DNA of 34,829 bases, from contig DASTZC010000269.1 in NCBI GenBank assembly GCA_035764505.1, forward strand, positions 1-34,829. The letters are read 5' to 3'. The translations under genes and the position numbers were made by a program. Under the pieces are notes generated by a model that made no database searches, was not told the DNA's origin, and worked only from the letters and a program-made list of their open reading frames with translations. Below, piece by piece: positions 12,311 to 20,372 of this stretch (position 1 is the first letter of the stretch; every line of letters begins with the position of its first letter). This stretch comes from Candidatus Polarisedimenticolia bacterium (GTDB lineage: Bacteria > Acidobacteriota > Polarisedimenticolia > Gp22-AA2 > AA152).

Positions 12311-13356
12311 AACACCGCAATCCCAAGATCAACCGCTATTACATGATCTTGCCCGAGGACGGCTTCCTCGGCCGCTGGCGCAAGCGCCTGACCCGGCGGC
12401 CGGTGCCGCGCTTTCCCCGCAACATCCAGATCCAGACGCAGACCGGCTGCAACGCCGACTGCGTCTTCTGCCCCTACGGCGCCACCGCCGACAGCCAGCC
12501 CAAGGGGAAGATGGACTGGGATCTGTTCCGCAAGATCATCGATGAGACCGTCGGCTACCGCGTCCGCCGCATCAGCCCTTACCTGATGAACGAGCCTTTC
12601 GTGGATCGCGAGATCTTCGAGCGCATCCGCTACATCAACCGCGTCAATCCACGCGCCAAGGTGATTCTCACGAGCAACGGCTCGCTGCTGACCGAGGAGG
12701 TCGTGGGCCGCATCGTGGATCTGGGCGACGGCCTGCACGAGCTGGCAATCTCGGTGCAGGGAATCGATCCCGACGCCTACGAGAAGACGATGCGCGGCGG
12801 GCTGCGCTTCGACCGGACGATGGCCAACGTGGACCGCCTGATCGAGGCGCTGCGCCGGCGGCAGGCCACCCGGCCGGCCCTCTGGATCACGATGGTCGAC
12901 ACGGAGCTGATCGACGCGAAGAAGGCCGTGGAATACTGGCGCGGGCGCGGCGTGAACGCGCGCTACACCATGCTGGAGAATCGCGGCGGGAACATCACGG
13001 ACGCCGAGGAGATGGCGCACCACGAGCAGATGGACTATTTCAGCGACTGCACGCGGCTGCTCAAGCAGGCCTACATCAAGTTCAACGGCGACCTGGTCCT
13101 GTGCTGCACCGATTACGATGCGAAGGTCATCCTGGGCAACGTGCGGGAGAAGAGCCTGTACGAGGTGTGGAACGGCGAGATGGCCACCTCCATCCGGAGG
13201 AAGTTCCTCTCGGACCGCATCGGCGAGATTTCCCTGTGCAGCGTCTGCAAGGTGGATCGCGAGAAGGAAATCGCGGTCAAGGCAAGCGGTCCCACGCCGT
13301 TTGCCACGAGACCGTCGCTCCCGACGGCCACCCCGGCCACTCGGGCTACTCCTTGA
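12307..13356 (+). CDS. Radical SAM protein with SPASM-type C-terminal cluster region
   Basis: The 349-residue protein has the radical SAM CxxxCxxC motif at C48, C52 and C55 (TGCNADCVFC), which binds the [4Fe-4S] cluster that cleaves SAM. A TIM-barrel half follows, then a SPASM-like Cys region: the YIKFNGDLVLCCTDYD phrase with paired Cys, GNVREKSLYEVWNG and a final CSVCKVDRE. SPASM proteins bind one or two extra clusters and modify peptides or sugars; the substrate here is unknown. Context suggests glycan or envelope modification. The start is GTG 12307 (GTGA with the GT4 stop). The tail is a Thr/Pro/Ala-rich extension whose end overlaps the convergent regulator gene by 11 bases. Confidence 0.9.
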   Translation: MKHRNPKINRYYMILPEDGFLGRWRKRLTRRPVPRFPRNIQIQTQTGCNADCVFCPYGATADSQPKGKMDWDLFRKIIDETVGYRVRRISPYLMNEPFVDREIFERIRYINRVNPRAKVILTSNGSLLTEEVVGRIVDLGDGLHELAISVQGIDPDAYEKTMRGGLRFDRTMANVDRLIEALRRRQATRPALWITMVDTELIDAKKAVEYWRGRGVNARYTMLENRGGNITDAEEMAHHEQMDYFSDCTRLLKQAYIKFNGDLVLCCTDYDAKVILGNVREKSLYEVWNGEMATSIRRKFLSDRIGEISLCSVCKVDREKEIAVKASGPTPFATRPSLPTATPATRATP

Positions 13357-16300
13357 CGCGCAGCGAGCGCATCTTGCGGAACAGCGTCGCTCGCGAGATT
13401 CCCAGCAGCGCCGCCGCCTGAGAGCGGTTTCCCGCGGCGGCTTTCAGCGCCCGGCGCAGCTCGCCGCGGCTGAGGGCCGACTCCGGCGCCTTCTTTCCGC
13501 CCGGCAGGTCCGCCACCCGATCCAGCAGCTCCGGATCCCGCGCGAGATCCGAGAGCGTCAGCGAGGGGCCCTCGGCGAACAGGGCGAGGCGCGCCAGCGT
13601 GTTCTCCAGCTCCCGGATGTTGCCCGGCCAGGGATGCCGTGAGAGCACCGAGAGGACGTGCGGATCGATCCGCAAGGGGCGGGTCCCTTTCTCGGCCGCA
13701 ATCTTCTCCAGGAAATGGTCGATGAGCAGCGGCAGATCTTCCTTACGCTGCCTCAGCGGTGGCAGCGTCACGGTGACGACGTTGAGCCGGTAGAACAGGT
13801 CCTCGCGGAATCTTCGCTCGGCCACCATCGCCTTGAGGTCGCGGTTGGTGGCCGCCACGATACGCACGTCCACCTTGCGCGGCGCGCCGCTCCCCACGGG
13901 ACGGATTTCTCCTTCCTGGATGGCCCGCAGCAGCTTGCTCTGCAGCGGCAGGCTCATCTCCCCCAGCTCGTCCAGGAAGAGCGTGCCACCGTCGGCCAGC
14001 TCGAACAGGCCCGGCTTGTCCTGTTCGGCGCCGGTGAAGGCGCCGCGGACATGTCCGAACAGCTCGCTTTCCAGGAGGCTCTCCGGCAGCGCGGCGACGT
14101 TCTCGGTCAAAAACCGCCGGTCCTTGCGGCGCGAGTTGAAATGGATGGCGCGCGCGATCAGCTCCTTGCCGGTGCCGCTCTCTCCCTGGATGATCACCGG
14201 GAGCGCGGTATCCGCCACCTTCTCCACCCGCTCCAACGCGGCGATCAGCGCCGGGCTGGATCCGATGATGTTGCGGAAGGAGAAGCGGTTCTGCACCGTC
14301 TGCTTGAGGTAGAGGTTCTCCTGGCGGAGAGCCTCGACCAGCCGGGCGTTCTCGATCGCCACGGCGGCCTGGTTGGCGAACGCCTCGAGGAACTCGAGGT
14401 CCTCCTCGCCGAACAGGACGTCCCCACGGCGGCTGTCGAGATAGACGGTCCCCAGGATGCGCTCGCGGATCCGCAGGGGCACGCAGACCAGCGAGCGGAT
14501 GTTGTAGAGGCTAACGCTGTCGAAGCGCTCGAAGCGCCGGTCGGAGCCGGCATCCAGGGTGACGATTGGCTTTCCTTCGGCCGCCTCCTCGAGGATGCGG
14601 CGGCTGTACTCTCCGGCGTCCCGAATCGTCTCCTGGTCCAGGTTCCTGGCGACCCGCACCTTGAGCTCGCCGGCCTCCCCCTCGCGCAGGAAGATGAGAC
14701 CTCGCTCGGCGCCGACGATTTGAATCGCCAGGTCGAGGACGCGGCTCAGCAGCTCGGTGAGATCCTTCAGGGTGCTGACGATCTGCGTGATCTCGTAGAG
14801 GGTCGCCAGCATCTTCACCGGGGGCACCCGACGCGTCGCGGTCCCCATCGGACGATCCTCTCCGCCTTCCAGGGAGGCCAGACGCTCCCTGACCTGCTGG
14901 CGGGAACCCGTGGCCAGGTAGCGCCGTCGGGCGGACGAGTCCTCCAGCCGGGACGCGATCTCGCGATGCAGGCGCTCCACCTCCCGCAGCAGCGCCGCCC
15001 GACGCTCCGGCCTGGCCGATTTTTCCATCCATTCCGATTGCGCGATCCGGAGATCGGCTTCCTGGTCGCGCCGCGCCAGGTTCTGCGCCAGGCCGATCGC
15101 CTTTTCCAGGCACACGGAGGCCTCGTCCAGCCGTCCTTCGGCAAGACGGCAACGCCCCTCCGCCGCGCTGCACCGCAGGCGCTCCTCGACGCTGCTGTTG
15201 CCGCCCAGCAGATCCTCCATCTCGTGTGCCCGGGTAGAGGCTTCGCGGAGCGACCCGGTTCCCAGAAGGGCATCCAGCAACGCCTCCAGGGATCCCAGCT
15301 GCAATCGCCGGTTCTTCAGTCGGCGCGCCAGGACCAGGGCCTTCTCCCCGCCGGAGAGCGCTTCGCGGTGCTTTCCCTCCTCCAGGGCGTCGCGCGCCAG
15401 CGCGAGCAGGAGAAAACCCTCCTGGAGATCGTGCGAGCCTTCCCGCGCGATCCGCAGCCCTTCCTGGTGGGCTTCCCATGCCCCCGCCGAATCGCCCAAT
15501 CGCCGCCGCGCGGTTCCCAGCAGGTCGAGCGACAAGGGCTGCAGCGACGTGTCGCCGATCTGCTTGCGAATCTCGAGCGCCTCCTCCGCCAGGCGAGCCG
15601 TCCGATCGTAGCGGCAGCGCGCCAGCTCGATCTCGGCCAGCGAGCTGAGGACCACGGCCAAGGTGGCCCGATCCGGCGTGGACCGGTAGAGGGCCGCCGA
15701 TTCCTCGGCGCGTTCGCCGGCTTCCTCCAGCCGTCCCAGGTCCTTGAGGGCCTGGGCCATGTTCCCAAGGGTCATGGCGACTCCCCGGCGATCGCCCAGC
15801 TTTCGCCAGGCTTCAAGCGCCTCGCCGTAAAGCTGCAGCGACACTTCCGGGCGATTCAAAGAGCTCTGCACCGTGCCCAGGTTGGTCTTGACGGTGACCA
15901 CCTGCCAGGCGTCCCCGGCCGCCTCCAGGTGCTCCAGAGCCTGGGTGAAATAGGGGACCGCCTCCTCCAGCTGGCCCATGCGGCCGTAAGCGGTCCCCAG
16001 GAAGTTCTTGGCGCGTCCGATTCCCAGCTGATCTCCCAGAGGCTCGAGCAGCGCCAATGCGGACCGCGCGCCGCGCACCGCCTGATCCAGATGGCCCTGA
16101 AGGAGATGGCCGTGCGCCATCGTCGCCAGGATCTGTCCCTCCTCCTTGCGATCCTCGAGACTGCGCGCAAGCCGCAGGGCGCGTTCCGAGAAGTCGCTCA
16201 TCTCCGGGAAATCCGAAGCTCCGGCATGCAGCCTGGCCAGCCGCGCGAACAGGGTCATCCGCCGACGCGTTTCCTTGCGCGGCAGCAGCTCCAGCGCCTT

Positions 16301-18583
16301 GCGATAGAACTGCAGCGCCGCCGTGAACGCGAACAACCGGGCGCACTTGTCTCCCGCTTTCTCGGCATACTCGAGCGCCTGCGGCTTCGAACCTGCCTGG
16401 ATGAAGTGGTAGGCGATCTCCTCGAGCATCTCCTCCGCGCCGGCTCGTGCCTGCTCCTCGAGCAGGCTCCCCGCCGCCAGATGCAGGCGCAGGCGCTCGG
16501 CGCCCAGGCTGCGGTAGATGAGGTCGCGCGCCCGCGAGTGGGCGAATCCCAGCTTCTCCTCGCCCCCTTCGTGGGTGCGCCGCAGGATGCCGCGATGCAG
16601 CAGAGGAGGGATTTCGGCGCTCAGCCGGTCGGCTTCCCAGCCGCCCGCGCGGGCCAGCAGGACGCGAGCGACCGGCCGGTTGAATACCGACAGGACTCGC
16701 ACCAGCCCTCGCTGTGCTTCGCTCAGGCGCGCCAGCCGGCGCGTCAGGGTCTCGTTGATGCTGCGCGGCACTTCCAGGCGATCGAGGTGGGCCAGGTCGA
16801 CGTCCCACTCTCCGTCGCGCCGGGTGACGGCGTTCTCCTCGGCCAGCGCCTTGAGGATCTCCTCGATAAACAGCGGATTGCCCGCCGTCTGCCGCTGCAG
16901 GATGAGGGCCAGATCGGCGGGATCCTCCTGCAGGGACATCATCGACTGGATCAGGCTGCCGATCTCCGCCACATCCAGACGCTGCAGCCGCACGACGCTC
17001 TGGCGCGCTCCGGCCGAGACGTCGCGCACCAGCGACGCGATGGGTTTCCCCTCCAGCTCGTCGTCACGATAGGTTCCGATGATCAGGTAAGGAGCGCCCG
17101 GAGCGCGCTCCCGCAAGGCGCGCAACAGCTCGATGGTGAGCTCATCGGCCCAGTGCAGGTCCTCCAGCGCCAGGACGAACGGGCGCTTGAGACAGACCTC
17201 GCGCAGCAGCCGCTCGATCGCCTCGAACAAACGGGACTTCGCCTCGCGGGCCGAAAGAATCCCGGTGGAAGACGAGCCGGACTGCAGATCGGGAAACAGG
17301 GGGGCGAGAATTGCGCGCGAGTCGGCGTCGGATTTCCCGGACGAATCGCTCAAGGCCGGCGAGAGAAACCGGAAAGCTTCGACGAAAGGCTGGTAGACGC
17401 TCGCGCCGCTCTCGAAGCAGGAGCCCGACAGGAACAGCACTCCCTCGGTCTGGCTCTGGGTGCGGAACTCCCGCAGCAGGCGGCTCTTGCCGACGCCGCT
17501 CTCGCCGCCGATCAGGATGAGGCGTGGTAAGGGGGAATCTTCTTCCTCTGCCGGCGTCGCGGTAAGGCGGAGCAGGGCGGCGCGCAGCGCCTGCATCTCG
17601 CGATCCCGTCCGACCAGCGCCGCCGAAGTCAGGTAGCTGTCGCGCGTCTCGCGGGTTTCCAGCACGTGCCGGGTCCCGAGCGCCTCGTTCAAGGCGCGCA
17701 AGAGGGCAGCGGCGTCGCGCGGCCGATCTTCCGGGTTCTTTTCCAGCAGCCAGAGGATGAGACGATCCAGGCCCGCAGGCAGGGTCGGATCGAGGCTGCG
17801 CGGCGAAGGGGGAATCGCTTCGCGCTGCGCCCGGATCAGCGCGACAGGGTCGCGCTGCGTGAAGGGGAGCGATCCGGTGGCGAGCCGGTAGAGGACCATG
17901 CCGAGGGAATAGAGATCGGAGCGCGGGTCCAGCCGGCCGCCGGCGAGCGCCTCGGGGGGCGCGTAGTGGAGCGTGCCTCCGGGTCGGGACGGCTCATCCT
18001 GATCCAGGAAACGAGCCAGTCCGAAATCCATCAGCTTGACCTGAAAAGGACGGCCTGCCGCAGCTTCAGGCAGGGGCAGCAGGAAGATATTCTGCGGCTT
18101 GATGTCGTTATGGAGGATGCCCCGTGCGTGGATGTAATCGAGTGCGCGGCAGAGCTGGGCCACCAGCTCTCCGAGGTGTGGTCTGATCTCGGCCGGCTCC
18201 AGCGCGGCGAGGTCTTTTCCGTCCAGATACTCCAGCGTCAGGAAGGGCTCGCCTCCTTCGTCGAGCACCCCGTAGTCGTAGACCCGCGCCAGGTTGGGGT
18301 GGCGCAGGCGTACCATGGCGCGAAACTCCTGCTTGAGGCGCTCCTCGCCGCCCTCGCCGGTCAGCGTCCGGCGCAGGCGCTTGAGGGCCACCTGCCTTCC
18401 CCCGTCCAGGATGTCCTCGCAGAGGTAGACCTGGCCCATGCCGCCCTCCCCAAGCGGGCGGAGGATCCGGTAGCGATGGTTGAGGAGATCTCCTGCCTCA
18501 GGCAGAGTCCCTTCTCCCGACTTCCTGGCGTTGAGATGGATGAATTCCTTTCGAAGTGTACGACGAACGATGAGCCGGATCAA
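13346..18583 (-). CDS. Giant Ser/Thr kinase - ATPase - TPR - GAF - sigma54 activator - Fis HTH hybrid regulator
   Basis: One 1745-codon frame joins five modules. Residues 38-300 form a Hanks-type kinase with glycine loop GEGGMG (45-50), VALK lysine 68, catalytic loop HNDIKPQN (158-165, Asn in place of the usual Arg) and DFG (186-188). Residues 322-700 are an AAA_16/MalT-like ATPase with Walker A GGESGVGKS (359-367) and Walker B LALEDLHWAD. About 700-1200 are TPR repeats, then a GAF domain (about 1245-1415). Residues 1440-1670 are a sigma54-interacting AAA+ domain with GESGTGK (1467-1473), intact GAFTGA (1514-1519), TLFLDE and an arginine-finger region. A Fis-type HTH (1707-1741) ends it. All motor motifs look intact, so it should remodel sigma54 holoenzyme in response to kinase, TPR or GAF input. 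TTG 18583 is the only standard start before the kinase fold. The neighbour divergent at 18739 is a likely target. Confidence 0.95.
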   Translation of the reverse strand: MIRLIVRRTLRKEFIHLNARKSGEGTLPEAGDLLNHRYRILRPLGEGGMGQVYLCEDILDGGRQVALKRLRRTLTGEGGEERLKQEFRAMVRLRHPNLARVYDYGVLDEGGEPFLTLEYLDGKDLAALEPAEIRPHLGELVAQLCRALDYIHARGILHNDIKPQNIFLLPLPEAAAGRPFQVKLMDFGLARFLDQDEPSRPGGTLHYAPPEALAGGRLDPRSDLYSLGMVLYRLATGSLPFTQRDPVALIRAQREAIPPSPRSLDPTLPAGLDRLILWLLEKNPEDRPRDAAALLRALNEALGTRHVLETRETRDSYLTSAALVGRDREMQALRAALLRLTATPAEEEDSPLPRLILIGGESGVGKSRLLREFRTQSQTEGVLFLSGSCFESGASVYQPFVEAFRFLSPALSDSSGKSDADSRAILAPLFPDLQSGSSSTGILSAREAKSRLFEAIERLLREVCLKRPFVLALEDLHWADELTIELLRALRERAPGAPYLIIGTYRDDELEGKPIASLVRDVSAGARQSVVRLQRLDVAEIGSLIQSMMSLQEDPADLALILQRQTAGNPLFIEEILKALAEENAVTRRDGEWDVDLAHLDRLEVPRSINETLTRRLARLSEAQRGLVRVLSVFNRPVARVLLARAGGWEADRLSAEIPPLLHRGILRRTHEGGEEKLGFAHSRARDLIYRSLGAERLRLHLAAGSLLEEQARAGAEEMLEEIAYHFIQAGSKPQALEYAEKAGDKCARLFAFTAALQFYRKALELLPRKETRRRMTLFARLARLHAGASDFPEMSDFSERALRLARSLEDRKEEGQILATMAHGHLLQGHLDQAVRGARSALALLEPLGDQLGIGRAKNFLGTAYGRMGQLEEAVPYFTQALEHLEAAGDAWQVVTVKTNLGTVQSSLNRPEVSLQLYGEALEAWRKLGDRRGVAMTLGNMAQALKDLGRLEEAGERAEESAALYRSTPDRATLAVVLSSLAEIELARCRYDRTARLAEEALEIRKQIGDTSLQPLSLDLLGTARRRLGDSAGAWEAHQEGLRIAREGSHDLQEGFLLLALARDALEEGKHREALSGGEKALVLARRLKNRRLQLGSLEALLDALLGTGSLREASTRAHEMEDLLGGNSSVEERLRCSAAEGRCRLAEGRLDEASVCLEKAIGLAQNLARRDQEADLRIAQSEWMEKSARPERRAALLREVERLHREIASRLEDSSARRRYLATGSRQQVRERLASLEGGEDRPMGTATRRVPPVKMLATLYEITQIVSTLKDLTELLSRVLDLAIQIVGAERGLIFLREGEAGELKVRVARNLDQETIRDAGEYSRRILEEAAEGKPIVTLDAGSDRRFERFDSVSLYNIRSLVCVPLRIRERILGTVYLDSRRGDVLFGEEDLEFLEAFANQAAVAIENARLVEALRQENLYLKQTVQNRFSFRNIIGSSPALIAALERVEKVADTALPVIIQGESGTGKELIARAIHFNSRRKDRRFLTENVAALPESLLESELFGHVRGAFTGAEQDKPGLFELADGGTLFLDELGEMSLPLQSKLLRAIQEGEIRPVGSGAPRKVDVRIVAATNRDLKAMVAERRFREDLFYRLNVVTVTLPPLRQRKEDLPLLIDHFLEKIAAEKGTRPLRIDPHVLSVLSRHPWPGNIRELENTLARLALFAEGPSLTLSDLARDPELLDRVADLPGGKKAPESALSRGELRRALKAAAGNRSQAAALLGISRATLFRKMRSLRVKE

Positions 18584-18604
18584 GCAGTTTCTTGAGACGG
18601 ACAG

Positions 18605-18672
18605 GCCACCAAATGCTTCTATGACAATCGGTTCTACGACCGAGCAGTGAGACGGTCAGAAAAATTGGTGGC
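18605..18672. repeat. 8-bp inverted repeat GCCACCAA-N52-TTGGTGGC in the divergent control region
   Basis: GCCACCAA (18605-18612) and TTGGTGGC (18665-18672) are perfect inverted copies whose centres are 60 bp apart. A smaller palindrome, TCGGT-N6-ACCGA (18628-18643), lies between them. The right arm touches the sigma54-like -24 element. They could be activator-binding sites for the hybrid regulator, but no footprint consensus is known. Confidence 0.35.
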
Positions 18673-18683
18673 GCGGGAGCTGC
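18669..18683 (+). promoter_or_regulatory. Sigma54-like promoter, TGGCGCG-N4-CTGC
   Basis: TGGCGCGGGAGCTGC matches the -24/-12 consensus TGGCACG-N4-TTGC at all but two positions and has the required 10-base GG-to-GC spacing. It points at the 18739 gene, with initiation expected near 18695. In GC-rich DNA such matches arise by chance; the argument for it is the adjacent GAFTGA-type activator. Confidence 0.35.
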
Positions 18684-18691
18684 GGGGGGCC

Positions 18692-18720
18692 TTGACAGCT
18701 TCGGGGGGGAGGGCTAAAAC
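18692..18720 (+). promoter_or_regulatory. Sigma70-type promoter, TTGACA-N17-TAAAAC
   Basis: A perfect TTGACA, a 17-base spacer and TAAAAC (4/6) precede the 18739 gene. Initiation near 18727 would give a 12-base leader that begins with the AGAGGAG ribosome site. It overlaps the predicted start of the sigma54-like promoter. Confidence 0.55.
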
Positions 18721-18738
18721 GAAGCCAGAGGAGCGACC

Positions 18739-19038
18739 ATGAAACCGGCGCCGCGCGTCCTGATCGTCACCTGTCCCTGCTGCAATACCGTGCTCCACCT
18801 CGATCGCGATACCGGAGCGCTGCTCCTTGAGGAGCGGCCGCGCAAAGGACCGACGAAATCGCTGGAGGAAGCGGCGCGGGAGAACGCCGCGCGCCAGGAG
18901 CAGGCCCGCGCCCAGCTGGCCAAGGCGATGCAGGAAGAAAAGCACCGTGACGAGATCATGGAGAAGAAGTTCAAGGAGGCGATGAAGAAGGCCGAGAAGG
19001 ACGAAACGCGGCCACCGCGCCCCTTCGACCTCGACTGA
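18739..19038 (+). CDS. Small CPCC-motif protein with a charged helical tail
   Basis: I do not recognise a named family. The 99-residue protein has an N-terminal strand VLIVTCPCCNTVLHLDRDTG containing C12-P-C14-C15, which looks like one half of a zinc ribbon. About residues 38-90 are rich in Glu, Lys, Ala and Gln with no helix breakers (EEAARENAARQEQARAQLAK), a probable long helix or coiled coil. The final segment is Pro-rich and acidic (RPPRPFDLD). With too few ligands for a complete zinc site, dimerisation through the helix could complete it; this is inference. The ATG has AGAGGAG five bases upstream. It is divergent from the giant regulator and convergent with the NamZ gene eight bases away. 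Confidence 0.8.
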   Translation: MKPAPRVLIVTCPCCNTVLHLDRDTGALLLEERPRKGPTKSLEEAARENAARQEQARAQLAKAMQEEKHRDEIMEKKFKEAMKKAEKDETRPPRPFDLD

Positions 19039-19045
19039 GACAATC

Positions 19046-20296
19046 CTAGGCGTACATCCGGAAGGGCTTCGCTTCTCGCACGAAGGCAGCGGTTTCCTTG
19101 CGCCAGCTCTTCTCCAGCTTTGCCAGGCTGCTCCCCGACTCCAGCACCTTCCGCACGGCCGGATCTCCCGTGAGCACGTCGACCGGCAGCTTGTCGGTGA
19201 CGTACTCGTAGGGTGGCTGCTTCCAGATGAAATCGAGCCGGTGCTCTGCCAGCACGTCCTGGAGGATCGCGAGGGTCGTCAGGTAGGGCTTGTACGCCTT
19301 CCGATCGGTCACCTGAAGCTGGAACCCGAAGCAGATCTTGCCGCTCCATTTCGAGAAGGTGGGCTGGAACGTCTGGTCCCTCAGGACCACCCCCGGCAGC
19401 TTACGGGAGTCGAAGGCGGCCCTGAACCGCTTCATGTCGAGGTACGGAGCGCCGAAGATCTCGAACGGACGCGTCGACCCTCTCCCCTCCGACAGATTGG
19501 TCCCTTCCAGGAGCACCTGGCCCGGATAGACCATGGCCGTGTCGAAAGTGGGCATGTTAGGGGAGGGAAGGACCCACTCCAGCCCGGTATCGGGAAACAG
19601 CATCTTTCGGCGCCAGCCGCGCATCGGAATAACCGTCAGGTCGCAGGCCCCGGGACAGCGGATGCCGACGCCGTCGCGCCGCGGCTTGGGACGGGCCCCT
19701 TTCGAGGCGTTCCCCAGCCGCGCATTCACCAAGGCCGCCATTTCCCCGAGCGTCATGCCGTGGCGCATCGGGACCGGATATAGCCCGACGAAGGATCGAA
19801 ATCCGTCGCGCACCAGATTTCCTTCGACGACTTCTCCTCCCAGCGGGTTCGGGCGGTCCAGGATGACCACCTCCTTGCCTGCCGCGGCGCAGGCTTCCAG
19901 GGCCAGGGCCGTCGTCCATTCGAAGGTGTAGACGCGGCAGCCCACGTCCTGAAGATCCACGAGGAGGACATCGAGATGCTCCAGCATCGCGGCCGTCGGC
20001 TTGCGCGTCTCCGAATAGAGGCTGTAGACGGGGATCATCAGCTCGGTGTCGAATCCATGCGGCGATTCGACCATGTTGTCCTGCTTCTCCCCGCCGAAGC
20101 CGTGCTGGGGCCCGAAAAGGCAGGAGAGTTTCTTGCCGTAAACCTGCAGGACGACATCGCGGGCCGAGACGAACTCGGAGGAGACGGAGGCGGGGTGCAT
20201 CAGCAGACCGATCCGTCGCCCGCGCAGCCAGCGCGGCTTCGAGCGGGCCAGGATCTCCAGTCCGGTTAGTACTTTGGGTCGGGATCGGGAGGACAT
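19046..20296 (-). CDS. DUF1343 / NamZ-type exo-beta-N-acetylmuramidase
   Basis: This 416-residue protein matches the DUF1343 family, whose characterised member NamZ releases MurNAc from the non-reducing end of peptidoglycan fragments. Conserved blocks are RRIGLLMHPASV, LFGPQHGFGGEKQDNM, VDLQDVGCRVYTFEWT, LDRPNPLGGEVVEGN and VLPSPNMPTFDTAMVYPG. The His in GPQHGF and the Glu in YTFEW are the expected active-site region. ATG 20296 has AAGGGG seven bases upstream; the longer frame to 20359 lacks a better site. No signal peptide is visible, which is unusual if the enzyme is to act outside and points to cytoplasmic muropeptide recycling. It lies 129 bases downstream of pepE on the same strand. Confidence 0.9.
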   Translation of the reverse strand: MSSRSRPKVLTGLEILARSKPRWLRGRRIGLLMHPASVSSEFVSARDVVLQVYGKKLSCLFGPQHGFGGEKQDNMVESPHGFDTELMIPVYSLYSETRKPTAAMLEHLDVLLVDLQDVGCRVYTFEWTTALALEACAAAGKEVVILDRPNPLGGEVVEGNLVRDGFRSFVGLYPVPMRHGMTLGEMAALVNARLGNASKGARPKPRRDGVGIRCPGACDLTVIPMRGWRRKMLFPDTGLEWVLPSPNMPTFDTAMVYPGQVLLEGTNLSEGRGSTRPFEIFGAPYLDMKRFRAAFDSRKLPGVVLRDQTFQPTFSKWSGKICFGFQLQVTDRKAYKPYLTTLAILQDVLAEHRLDFIWKQPPYEYVTDKLPVDVLTGDPAVRKVLESGSSLAKLEKSWRKETAAFVREAKPFRMYA

Positions 20297-20344
20297 GATT
20301 CGGCCCCTTGCCAAGCGAAAACTGCCGGTCCTACCGCAGCTGGG

Positions 20345-20372
20345 GTGTCCCGGGGACACAGGCGGTGTCCCC
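20345..20372. repeat. REP-like palindromic element
   Basis: Two overlapping perfect palindromes occur: GTGTCCC-G-GGGACAC (20345-20359) and GGGGACAC-AGGCG-GTGTCCCC (20352-20372). The second would form an 8-bp stem with a 5-base loop. Stacked GTGTCCC/GGGACAC arms like these resemble intergenic REP elements mobilised by REP-associated tyrosine transposases. I see only one copy here, between pepE and the NamZ gene. Confidence 0.5.

Follow-up and report, generated by a model that had tools for sequence, protein, structure and literature searches.

A Hanks-type kinase, a STAND-type ATPase and a sigma54 activator in one chain in Candidatus Polarisedimenticolia

The window analyzed here, a stretch of 34,829 nucleotides from contig DASTZC010000269.1 of a Candidatus Polarisedimenticolia bacterium (Acidobacteriota; assembly GCA_035764505.1), encodes on its minus strand a single long protein in which a Hanks-type serine/threonine kinase is fused to a complete sigma54 activator. 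From the N- to the C-terminus, the chain consists of the Hanks kinase, an AAA_16 ATPase of the MalT/STAND type, a TPR region, a GAF domain, a sigma54-activator AAA+ domain and a Fis-type helix-turn-helix (HTH). This chain is real and lies in one frame, and its anatomy, its intact motifs, the conservation of the fusion and the relative rates of change of its modules were observed directly. Much is known about Hanks kinases, STAND switches and sigma54 activators individually, and they are usually treated as separate control layers. Here one chain joins all three; most of the sampled genomes of the class keep it, and it is found again in at least three other phyla.

The mechanically delimited open reading frame (13346..18583) runs on the minus strand from a TTG at 18583 down to 13346 and is open for 1745 codons. 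A first-pass annotation of the same DNA had described one uninterrupted frame of 1745 residues without stating its strand; over this interval the plus strand contains stop codons. The length of the open frame was correct, and translation probably begins downstream of its first 26 codons: the fusion regulator gene probably extends from a CTG start (18505..18503, minus) to the stop codon (13348..13346) and encodes 1719 aa (13346..18505, minus). The annotation had allowed for a break within the gene, or for modules that are separate proteins in close relatives, and neither was found. An assembly join or frameshift is very unlikely, because three relatives, two of the same genus (69% identity each) and one of the same family (63%), are colinear with the fusion over its whole length (one of them from residue 23) and keep it as one chain. 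The G+C content along the gene was unremarkable (0.63-0.69 in 700-base steps), and on these two grounds a frameshift or assembly chimera was rejected. The source genome comprises 4.46 Mb in 288 contigs with a computed completeness of 100%.

All five modules named in the first-pass annotation were recovered by a Pfam search, each match lying above the curated cut-off (domain residue numbers refer to the 1745-aa frame, and all domain coordinates to the minus strand). The kinase (residues 38-289, E 3.8e-42; 17717..18472) has a glycine loop, the VAxK lysine (K68), the HxD aspartate (H158-N159-D160), the D186-F-G motif and an APE motif that reads PPE; it is of the non-RD type (HND) and is probably active. 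The STAND/MalT-type region (16379..17623) begins with AAA_16 (residues 323-502, E 2.9e-25), which contains the Walker A and B motifs of a STAND nucleotide-binding domain, and continues through helical and beta elements to about residue 735, with putative subdomain limits. The TPR superhelix that follows (∼residues 736-1230, putative limits; 14894..16378) was matched by TPR_12 in five stretches and is the fastest-evolving large module. The C-terminal part comprises the GAF domain (residues 1274-1410, E 1.5e-19; 14354..14764), the Sigma54_activat core with its Walker A and B motifs and arginine finger region (residues 1439-1605, E 3.9e-72; 13769..14269), the lid (AAA_lid_14, residues 1611-1682; 13538..13753) and the Fis-type HTH (HTH_8, residues 1708-1739; 13367..13462). 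The GAFTGA loop (residues 1514-1519; 14027..14044) is intact, as are the kinase Lys, Asp and DFG and the Walker A motifs of the two ATPases, and the motif alignment together with the HTH_8 match bears out the earlier description of an intact GAFTGA and Fis HTH. Pfam gave no match in the protein to Response_reg, the mark of an NtrC-type receiver, to HisKA or HATPase, the mark of HstK-type kinases, or to FHA. The best NCBIfam score was that of NifA (TIGR01817), which at 382.3 bits was below the equivalog cut-off of 528.85.

A model of the kinase and STAND region (707 residues) was confident, with a predicted local distance difference test (pLDDT) score of 84 and a predicted template modeling (pTM) score of 0.85. 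Its kinase matched the fold of PknB with a Z score of 25.6 and a root-mean-square deviation of 1.9 over 253 residues. In this model helical and beta elements come behind the STAND nucleotide-binding domain, and in the protein the TPR sensor follows them; in the fold search with this model kinase matches filled the list, leaving the STAND part unprobed. By sequence, the closest solved structure was that of NifA (9qq6), which matched across GAF, AAA+ and HTH with an E of 1.6e-84. The model of these three domains (pLDDT 84, pTM 0.63) showed a long helix running from the GAF domain towards the AAA+ domain.

Fusions were counted only where a frame from kinase to sigma54 domain was read in the sequence itself; at three Myxococcota loci (L153, L157 and L159) frames tabulated at 1621-1693 aa measured 600-625 aa in the sequence. 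Of the 41 genomes of the class, 32 (counting the source genome) have kinase and sigma54 domains in a single frame; in four of these (G018, G023, G026 and G031) the kinase is truncated where the contig or locus stops. In the remaining nine, the kinase half lay at a contig end once (G010), the activator half lay at a contig or locus end three times (G015, G028 and G035), and the fusion was not read in five (G011, G025, G032, G036 and G039). From the genus through the family and order to the class, relatives had the modules in the same order. Elsewhere in the phylum, at least four of 59 sampled genomes have the fusion (G054, G064, G079 and G095), a lower bound as only candidates with long tabulated frames were read. 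Similar long proteins had been said to exist in a few phyla, and the fusion was indeed present in one genome each of Myxococcota (a Polyangiaceae genome with two genes, L185 and L186), Schekmanbacteria (L180) and Planctomycetota (L005); the planctomycetal kinase is degenerate and has neither glycine loop nor HxD. Among 72,556 plasmid records, no match at a single location extended over 80% of the protein, and 2116 records had partial matches.

A tree of 98 AAA+ domains placed the window protein within a fusion-only group of 13 with a Shimodaira-Hasegawa approximate likelihood ratio test (SH-aLRT) value of 81, and its four-row family group had an SH-aLRT of 99. As drawn, the tree requires at least 14 changes of the fusion label, only three of them forced by well-supported branches, and the fusion has therefore arisen or been lost several times; in this count four truncated rows were left unlabeled, and two contig-truncated rows (L203 and L105) were scored as 'other'.

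Conservation of the motifs was followed in an alignment of the window protein with 29 relatives. The catalytic lysine of the kinase was present in all 25 rows that include the region and the HxD aspartate in 26 of 27, while the full DFG was kept in 22 of 28 and its aspartate in 28 of 28. The GAFTGA motif was exact in 27 of 30 rows (two GSFTGA, one GAFSGA). Identity to six order-level relatives was 48-51% for the kinase, 32-36% for the STAND region, 23-27% for the TPR region, 59-65% for the GAF domain and 58-63% for the AAA+ domain. The TPR region is thus the least conserved large module and GAF and AAA+ are the most conserved, as expected if TPR and STAND form a variable input and GAF-AAA+ a common output. 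Over 25 fusions the pairwise identities of kinase, STAND, TPR, GAF and AAA+ were correlated (Spearman 0.53-0.73), each value exceeding all 300 permutations.

The reading that we favor, and to which we give an even chance of being correct, is that of a cytoplasmic one-protein sigma54 system built on a STAND switch of the MalT type, with TPR and STAND as the input and an ATP-driven assembly that would seed the AAA+ ring. The TPR superhelix would sense an effector or a partner, upon which the STAND ATPase would switch from its closed, ADP-bound state to its open, ATP-bound state and self-assemble. This step is proposed with the inducer-driven, ATP-dependent multimerization of MalT, a STAND with a TPR sensor, as precedent (PMC4381067, PMC6468293; statements on these and the other cited papers refer to excerpts of their text). 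Assembly would gather the C-terminal GAF-AAA+ modules as a ring, which would remodel the sigma54-RNA polymerase through its GAFTGA loops while the Fis HTH would bind enhancer DNA. The N-terminal kinase would be set off by the same assembly through trans-autophosphorylation, and would in turn adjust the assembly or phosphorylate partners. A more far-reaching version, which we put forward tentatively, is that the activator ring is both templated and licensed by ATP-driven STAND assembly acting jointly with trans-autophosphorylation of the kinase; this would be an apoptosome-like platform with promoter melting as its output and no partner histidine kinase or receiver. If STAND assembly does seed the activator ring, transcription from sigma54 would have a new kind of switch, and single point changes could then directly test what the fused kinase does.

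Several points weigh against STAND-driven ring assembly. A STAND domain driving a sigma54 ring has no documented precedent in the literature consulted, and each step proposed above, down to the choice of phosphorylated residues, is our inference from sequences and models. Sequence searches of solved structures returned no MalT or PH0952 chain and no STAND transcription factor, and in the window protein the STAND region matched no Pfam family beyond AAA_16 and AAA_22. AAA_16 was found in all 23 rows scanned, a scan that omitted seven of the 30 rows, short or diverged ones among them. Pfam shows no AAA_16 in the Schekmanbacteria (L180) and Myxococcota (L185) fusions, and some members of the class have a degraded Walker A or B motif, which suggests that ATP switching may not be universal. 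The correlations of HTH identity with the other modules were weak, four of five pairs falling inside the permutation range.

It is also conceivable, if doubtful, that the activator is gated by its own kinase, which would phosphorylate the linker, GAF or AAA+ domain of the same chain, switch the activator on or off and so replace the NtrC-type receiver. The kinase is intact, its conservation comes close to that of the activator, and a receiver domain is absent from the protein. The best GAF-activators of the Myxococcota sample mostly measure ∼600 aa, and of the ten scanned (from 20 retrieved loci) eight have an N-terminal FHA domain and two only the FHA-like Yop-YscD_cpl; a related output is therefore probably coupled there to Ser/Thr phosphorylation in trans. 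The alignment was also scanned for Ser and Thr residues identical in every aligned row outside the kinase, the ATPase cores and the HTH, and only S1356 and S1364 of the GAF domain were returned (28 of 28 rows each); within the HTH, T1733 was identical in 27 of 27. By eye the two GAF serines resemble serines in four FHA-GAF activators and are for this reason not tied to the fused kinase; the scan revealed no conserved Ser or Thr that is. Two further observations speak against gating by the kinase: all ten family and order members read HND in place of HRD, which suggests no classical activation-loop control, and the Planctomycetota member has lost the kinase motifs and retains the activator.

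Somewhat less likely still is a reading in which the kinase is a second output, so that the TPR/STAND input would lead both to transcription and to the phosphorylation of other proteins, and the activator need not be a substrate. Evidence for this comes from proteins in which the same front end bears other outputs, namely a PAS-LuxR HTH (L003, Brevinematales), PAS with a histidine-kinase ATPase (L181 and L182, Schekmanbacteria; HisKA is below the cut-off in the former and was not found in the latter, which has HATPase only), or a SpoIIE-type phosphatase (L184 840-5972, Planctomycetota), which places a kinase and a phosphatase in one chain. In some further kinase-STAND-TPR proteins no output domain was found. 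The kinase is retained while the C-terminus varies, and so would not have to match the activator. This front end with swappable outputs constitutes a natural experiment in signaling design. On the other side, a Schekmanbacteria genome has a sigma54-type AAA+ gene near five of 20 retrieved kinase-STAND loci, which hints at signaling from kinase to activator, although three of the five partners lack GAFTGA (the others are one with GAFTDA and one divergently placed response regulator). For the same reason these pairs are at best a doubtful split version of the fusion. Finally, an ordinary modular regulator with a vestigial or structural kinase, whose activator would be controlled by GAF-ligand binding alone as in NifA or FhlA, is very improbable: the NifA structure match, a GAF domain as conserved as AAA+ and the label changes on the AAA+ tree, which fit loose module exchange, are set against kinase catalytic residues that are kept where TPR identity drops to 20-27% and a fusion that 32 or more of the 41 class genomes possess.

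Further variant architectures were noted during the survey. The Schekmanbacteria genome of locus L007 (G101) contains a large expansion of kinase-STAND-TPR genes of ∼1000-1440 aa, of which 20 loci were retrieved (L130-L149), two of them with two such genes. At three loci (L140 7951-9639, L147 8082-9947 and L148 8133-9833) a GAFTGA-less sigma54-type AAA+ gene directly precedes the kinase-STAND-TPR genes, and the GAFTGA-less proteins of this genome form a long branch of their own on the AAA+ tree. In L096, L100 and L206 (4229-12556) a second Fis-type HTH lies just before the kinase, giving an HTH at both ends; the frame of L206 measures 2776 aa. At L183 (1430-7051), 1874 aa join 7TM-DISM, a histidine kinase, a receiver, GGDEF, GAF and a sigma54 activator.

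The start of the gene was assigned by comparison with its relatives. In two of them (G001 and G002), in-frame TGA stops lie upstream of the kinase and there is no ATG, GTG or TTG before it, while the TTG at 18583 of the window is the first codon of TTGATC and coincides with a conserved sigma70-like -35 hexamer; for these reasons the first 26 codons are probably untranslated, and the true start is probably the CTG at 18505. CTG-CCY-GAG is common to all four family genomes (window included), with a Shine-Dalgarno-like GGAG 6-8 nt upstream (18514..18517, minus, 8 nt before the CTG in the window), and at about this position four of six order-level relatives have ATG-CC and two have GTG. A counter-argument is that in-frame TTG codons are also available, two in G003 shortly before the CTG and one in the window at 18583, so that only G001 and G002 offer no choice of ATG, GTG or TTG before the kinase. 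With such a start (also at L082, L083 and L084), gene callers limited to ATG, GTG and TTG would truncate or misplace the gene.

The hexamer TTGATC (18583-18578), a 17-nt spacer and TACACT (18560-18555) form a probable sigma70-type promoter for the gene (18555..18583, minus), as judged from the conservation of TTGATC, the spacing and TA[CG]ACT in four of four family genomes, window included. It agrees at 8 of 12 positions with the sigma70 consensus, and a consensus scan at a threshold of 9/12 listed no promoter. A CTTGAC-type element, read by eye, lies upstream of the divergent neighboring gene in 4/4 family genomes. Two TGAGACGG boxes, 55 bp apart from start to start (18593..18655, plus), are a candidate operator; the core TGAGAC pair is found between the genes at exactly 55 bp in all four family genomes, and in G001 and G002 one box each deviates in its outer bases. 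A search of the own genome with the TGAGACG pair as a regulon marker returned two pairs, one of them at this locus, and no regulon was found. The first-pass annotation had proposed the region 18584-18738 as a template for sigma54-dependent transcription, which was not supported. Its sole sigma54-like site, TGGCGCGGGAGCTGC at 18669-18683, was rejected as target evidence as a chance-level match (two matches to the pattern in the window against 0.59 expected, 13 of 100 shuffles reaching two), and with up to one mismatch the pattern occurred in none of the intergenic regions of three relatives (L196, L001 and L195). With no conserved sigma54-like site, and sigma70-like elements conserved instead, the region is a poor template for a sigma54 assay.

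A sigma54 factor is encoded in the source genome. Of its 44 kinase matches, 43 exceed the Pfam cut-off, and of its 30 sigma54-activator matches 25 are strong; after the fusion, the longest of the strong ones measures 791 aa by its computed frame. A contig end truncates a second member (C7), whose last 567 aa contain GAF and activator, the kinase being unseen. It belongs to a recurrent arrangement in which a second fusion gene is directly followed on the same strand by a short sigma54 activator (395-502 aa), present in five genomes of the order, the source genome included (L189 9928-16680, L190 3746-10492, L191 6512-13251, L203 3101-6172 and L205 3356-9736). Within the family, the fusion gene neighbors a 99-aa CPCC protein and a NamZ exo-muramidase. 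The former, divergently encoded at 18739-19038 (plus), has a CPCC motif, a charged tail and no Pfam match, and occurs with 72-80% identity in three other family genomes (L083, L082 and L084), always beside the fusion gene. The NamZ exo-beta-N-acetylmuramidase gene (19046-20359, minus) adjoins this small gene and is kept in the family with 85-87% identity. In the sister family, a gene combining HD-GYP, GAF and GGDEF lies immediately upstream of the fusion on the same strand in 5/5 loci read (L189, L190, L192, L193 and L194; one further locus was unread), and it is a reasonable guess from this gene that cyclic di-GMP turnover may be the signal there.

Kinase-STAND proteins, kinase-GAF-histidine kinases and GAF activators are known separately. 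The first-pass annotation had supposed the mechanism undescribed, and no description of a kinase-sigma54-activator fusion was found in full-text searches of an open-access library, one of them aimed at STAND proteins, a scope outside which lie supplements and most subscription journals. The effector of MalT is a LuxR-type DNA-binding domain, and MalT is not known to have a kinase; the output of the fusion, in contrast, is an AAA+ ring for sigma54. The two are alike in that MalT/STAND activators combine a STAND NTPase, a TPR-type sensor and a DNA-binding output (PMC4381067, PMC6468293). Mycobacterial PknK is likewise a Hanks kinase classed as a STAND protein (PMC9045387), and a M. tuberculosis kinase, unnamed in the source, has a MalT-like C-terminal part (PMC1262709). 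Unlike the fusion, PknK phosphorylates other proteins (Rho, PrrA and MtrA), and the excerpt of that paper mentions no GAF or sigma54 activator (PMC9045387). The HstK-type dual kinases (cbSTKIII) of cyanobacteria share with the fusion a Ser/Thr kinase, a GAF domain and a second output in one chain (PMC2176072, PMC1262709). Their output is HisKA/HATPase where the fusion has a complete sigma54 activator, and HstK-like forms of its front end were found in a Schekmanbacteria genome. The GAF-type enhancer-binding proteins NifA, FhlA and NorR have the same GAF-AAA+(GAFTGA)-Fis HTH arrangement as the fusion and are not known to have a kinase, STAND or TPR part. An inventory of activator domains lists receiver, PAS, GAF and PTS types and, in the excerpt, names no kinase type (PMC3162934), and a survey of planctomycetal kinases reports TPR and WD40 partners, the term 'sigma54' being absent from its main text (PMC11032199). 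The nearest GAF-AAA+ halves in the Myxococcota sample are those of the FHA-domain sigma54 activators of myxobacteria. In these, a phospho-signal would arrive in trans through the FHA domain, whereas the fusion, in which FHA was not found, has the kinase in the chain itself.

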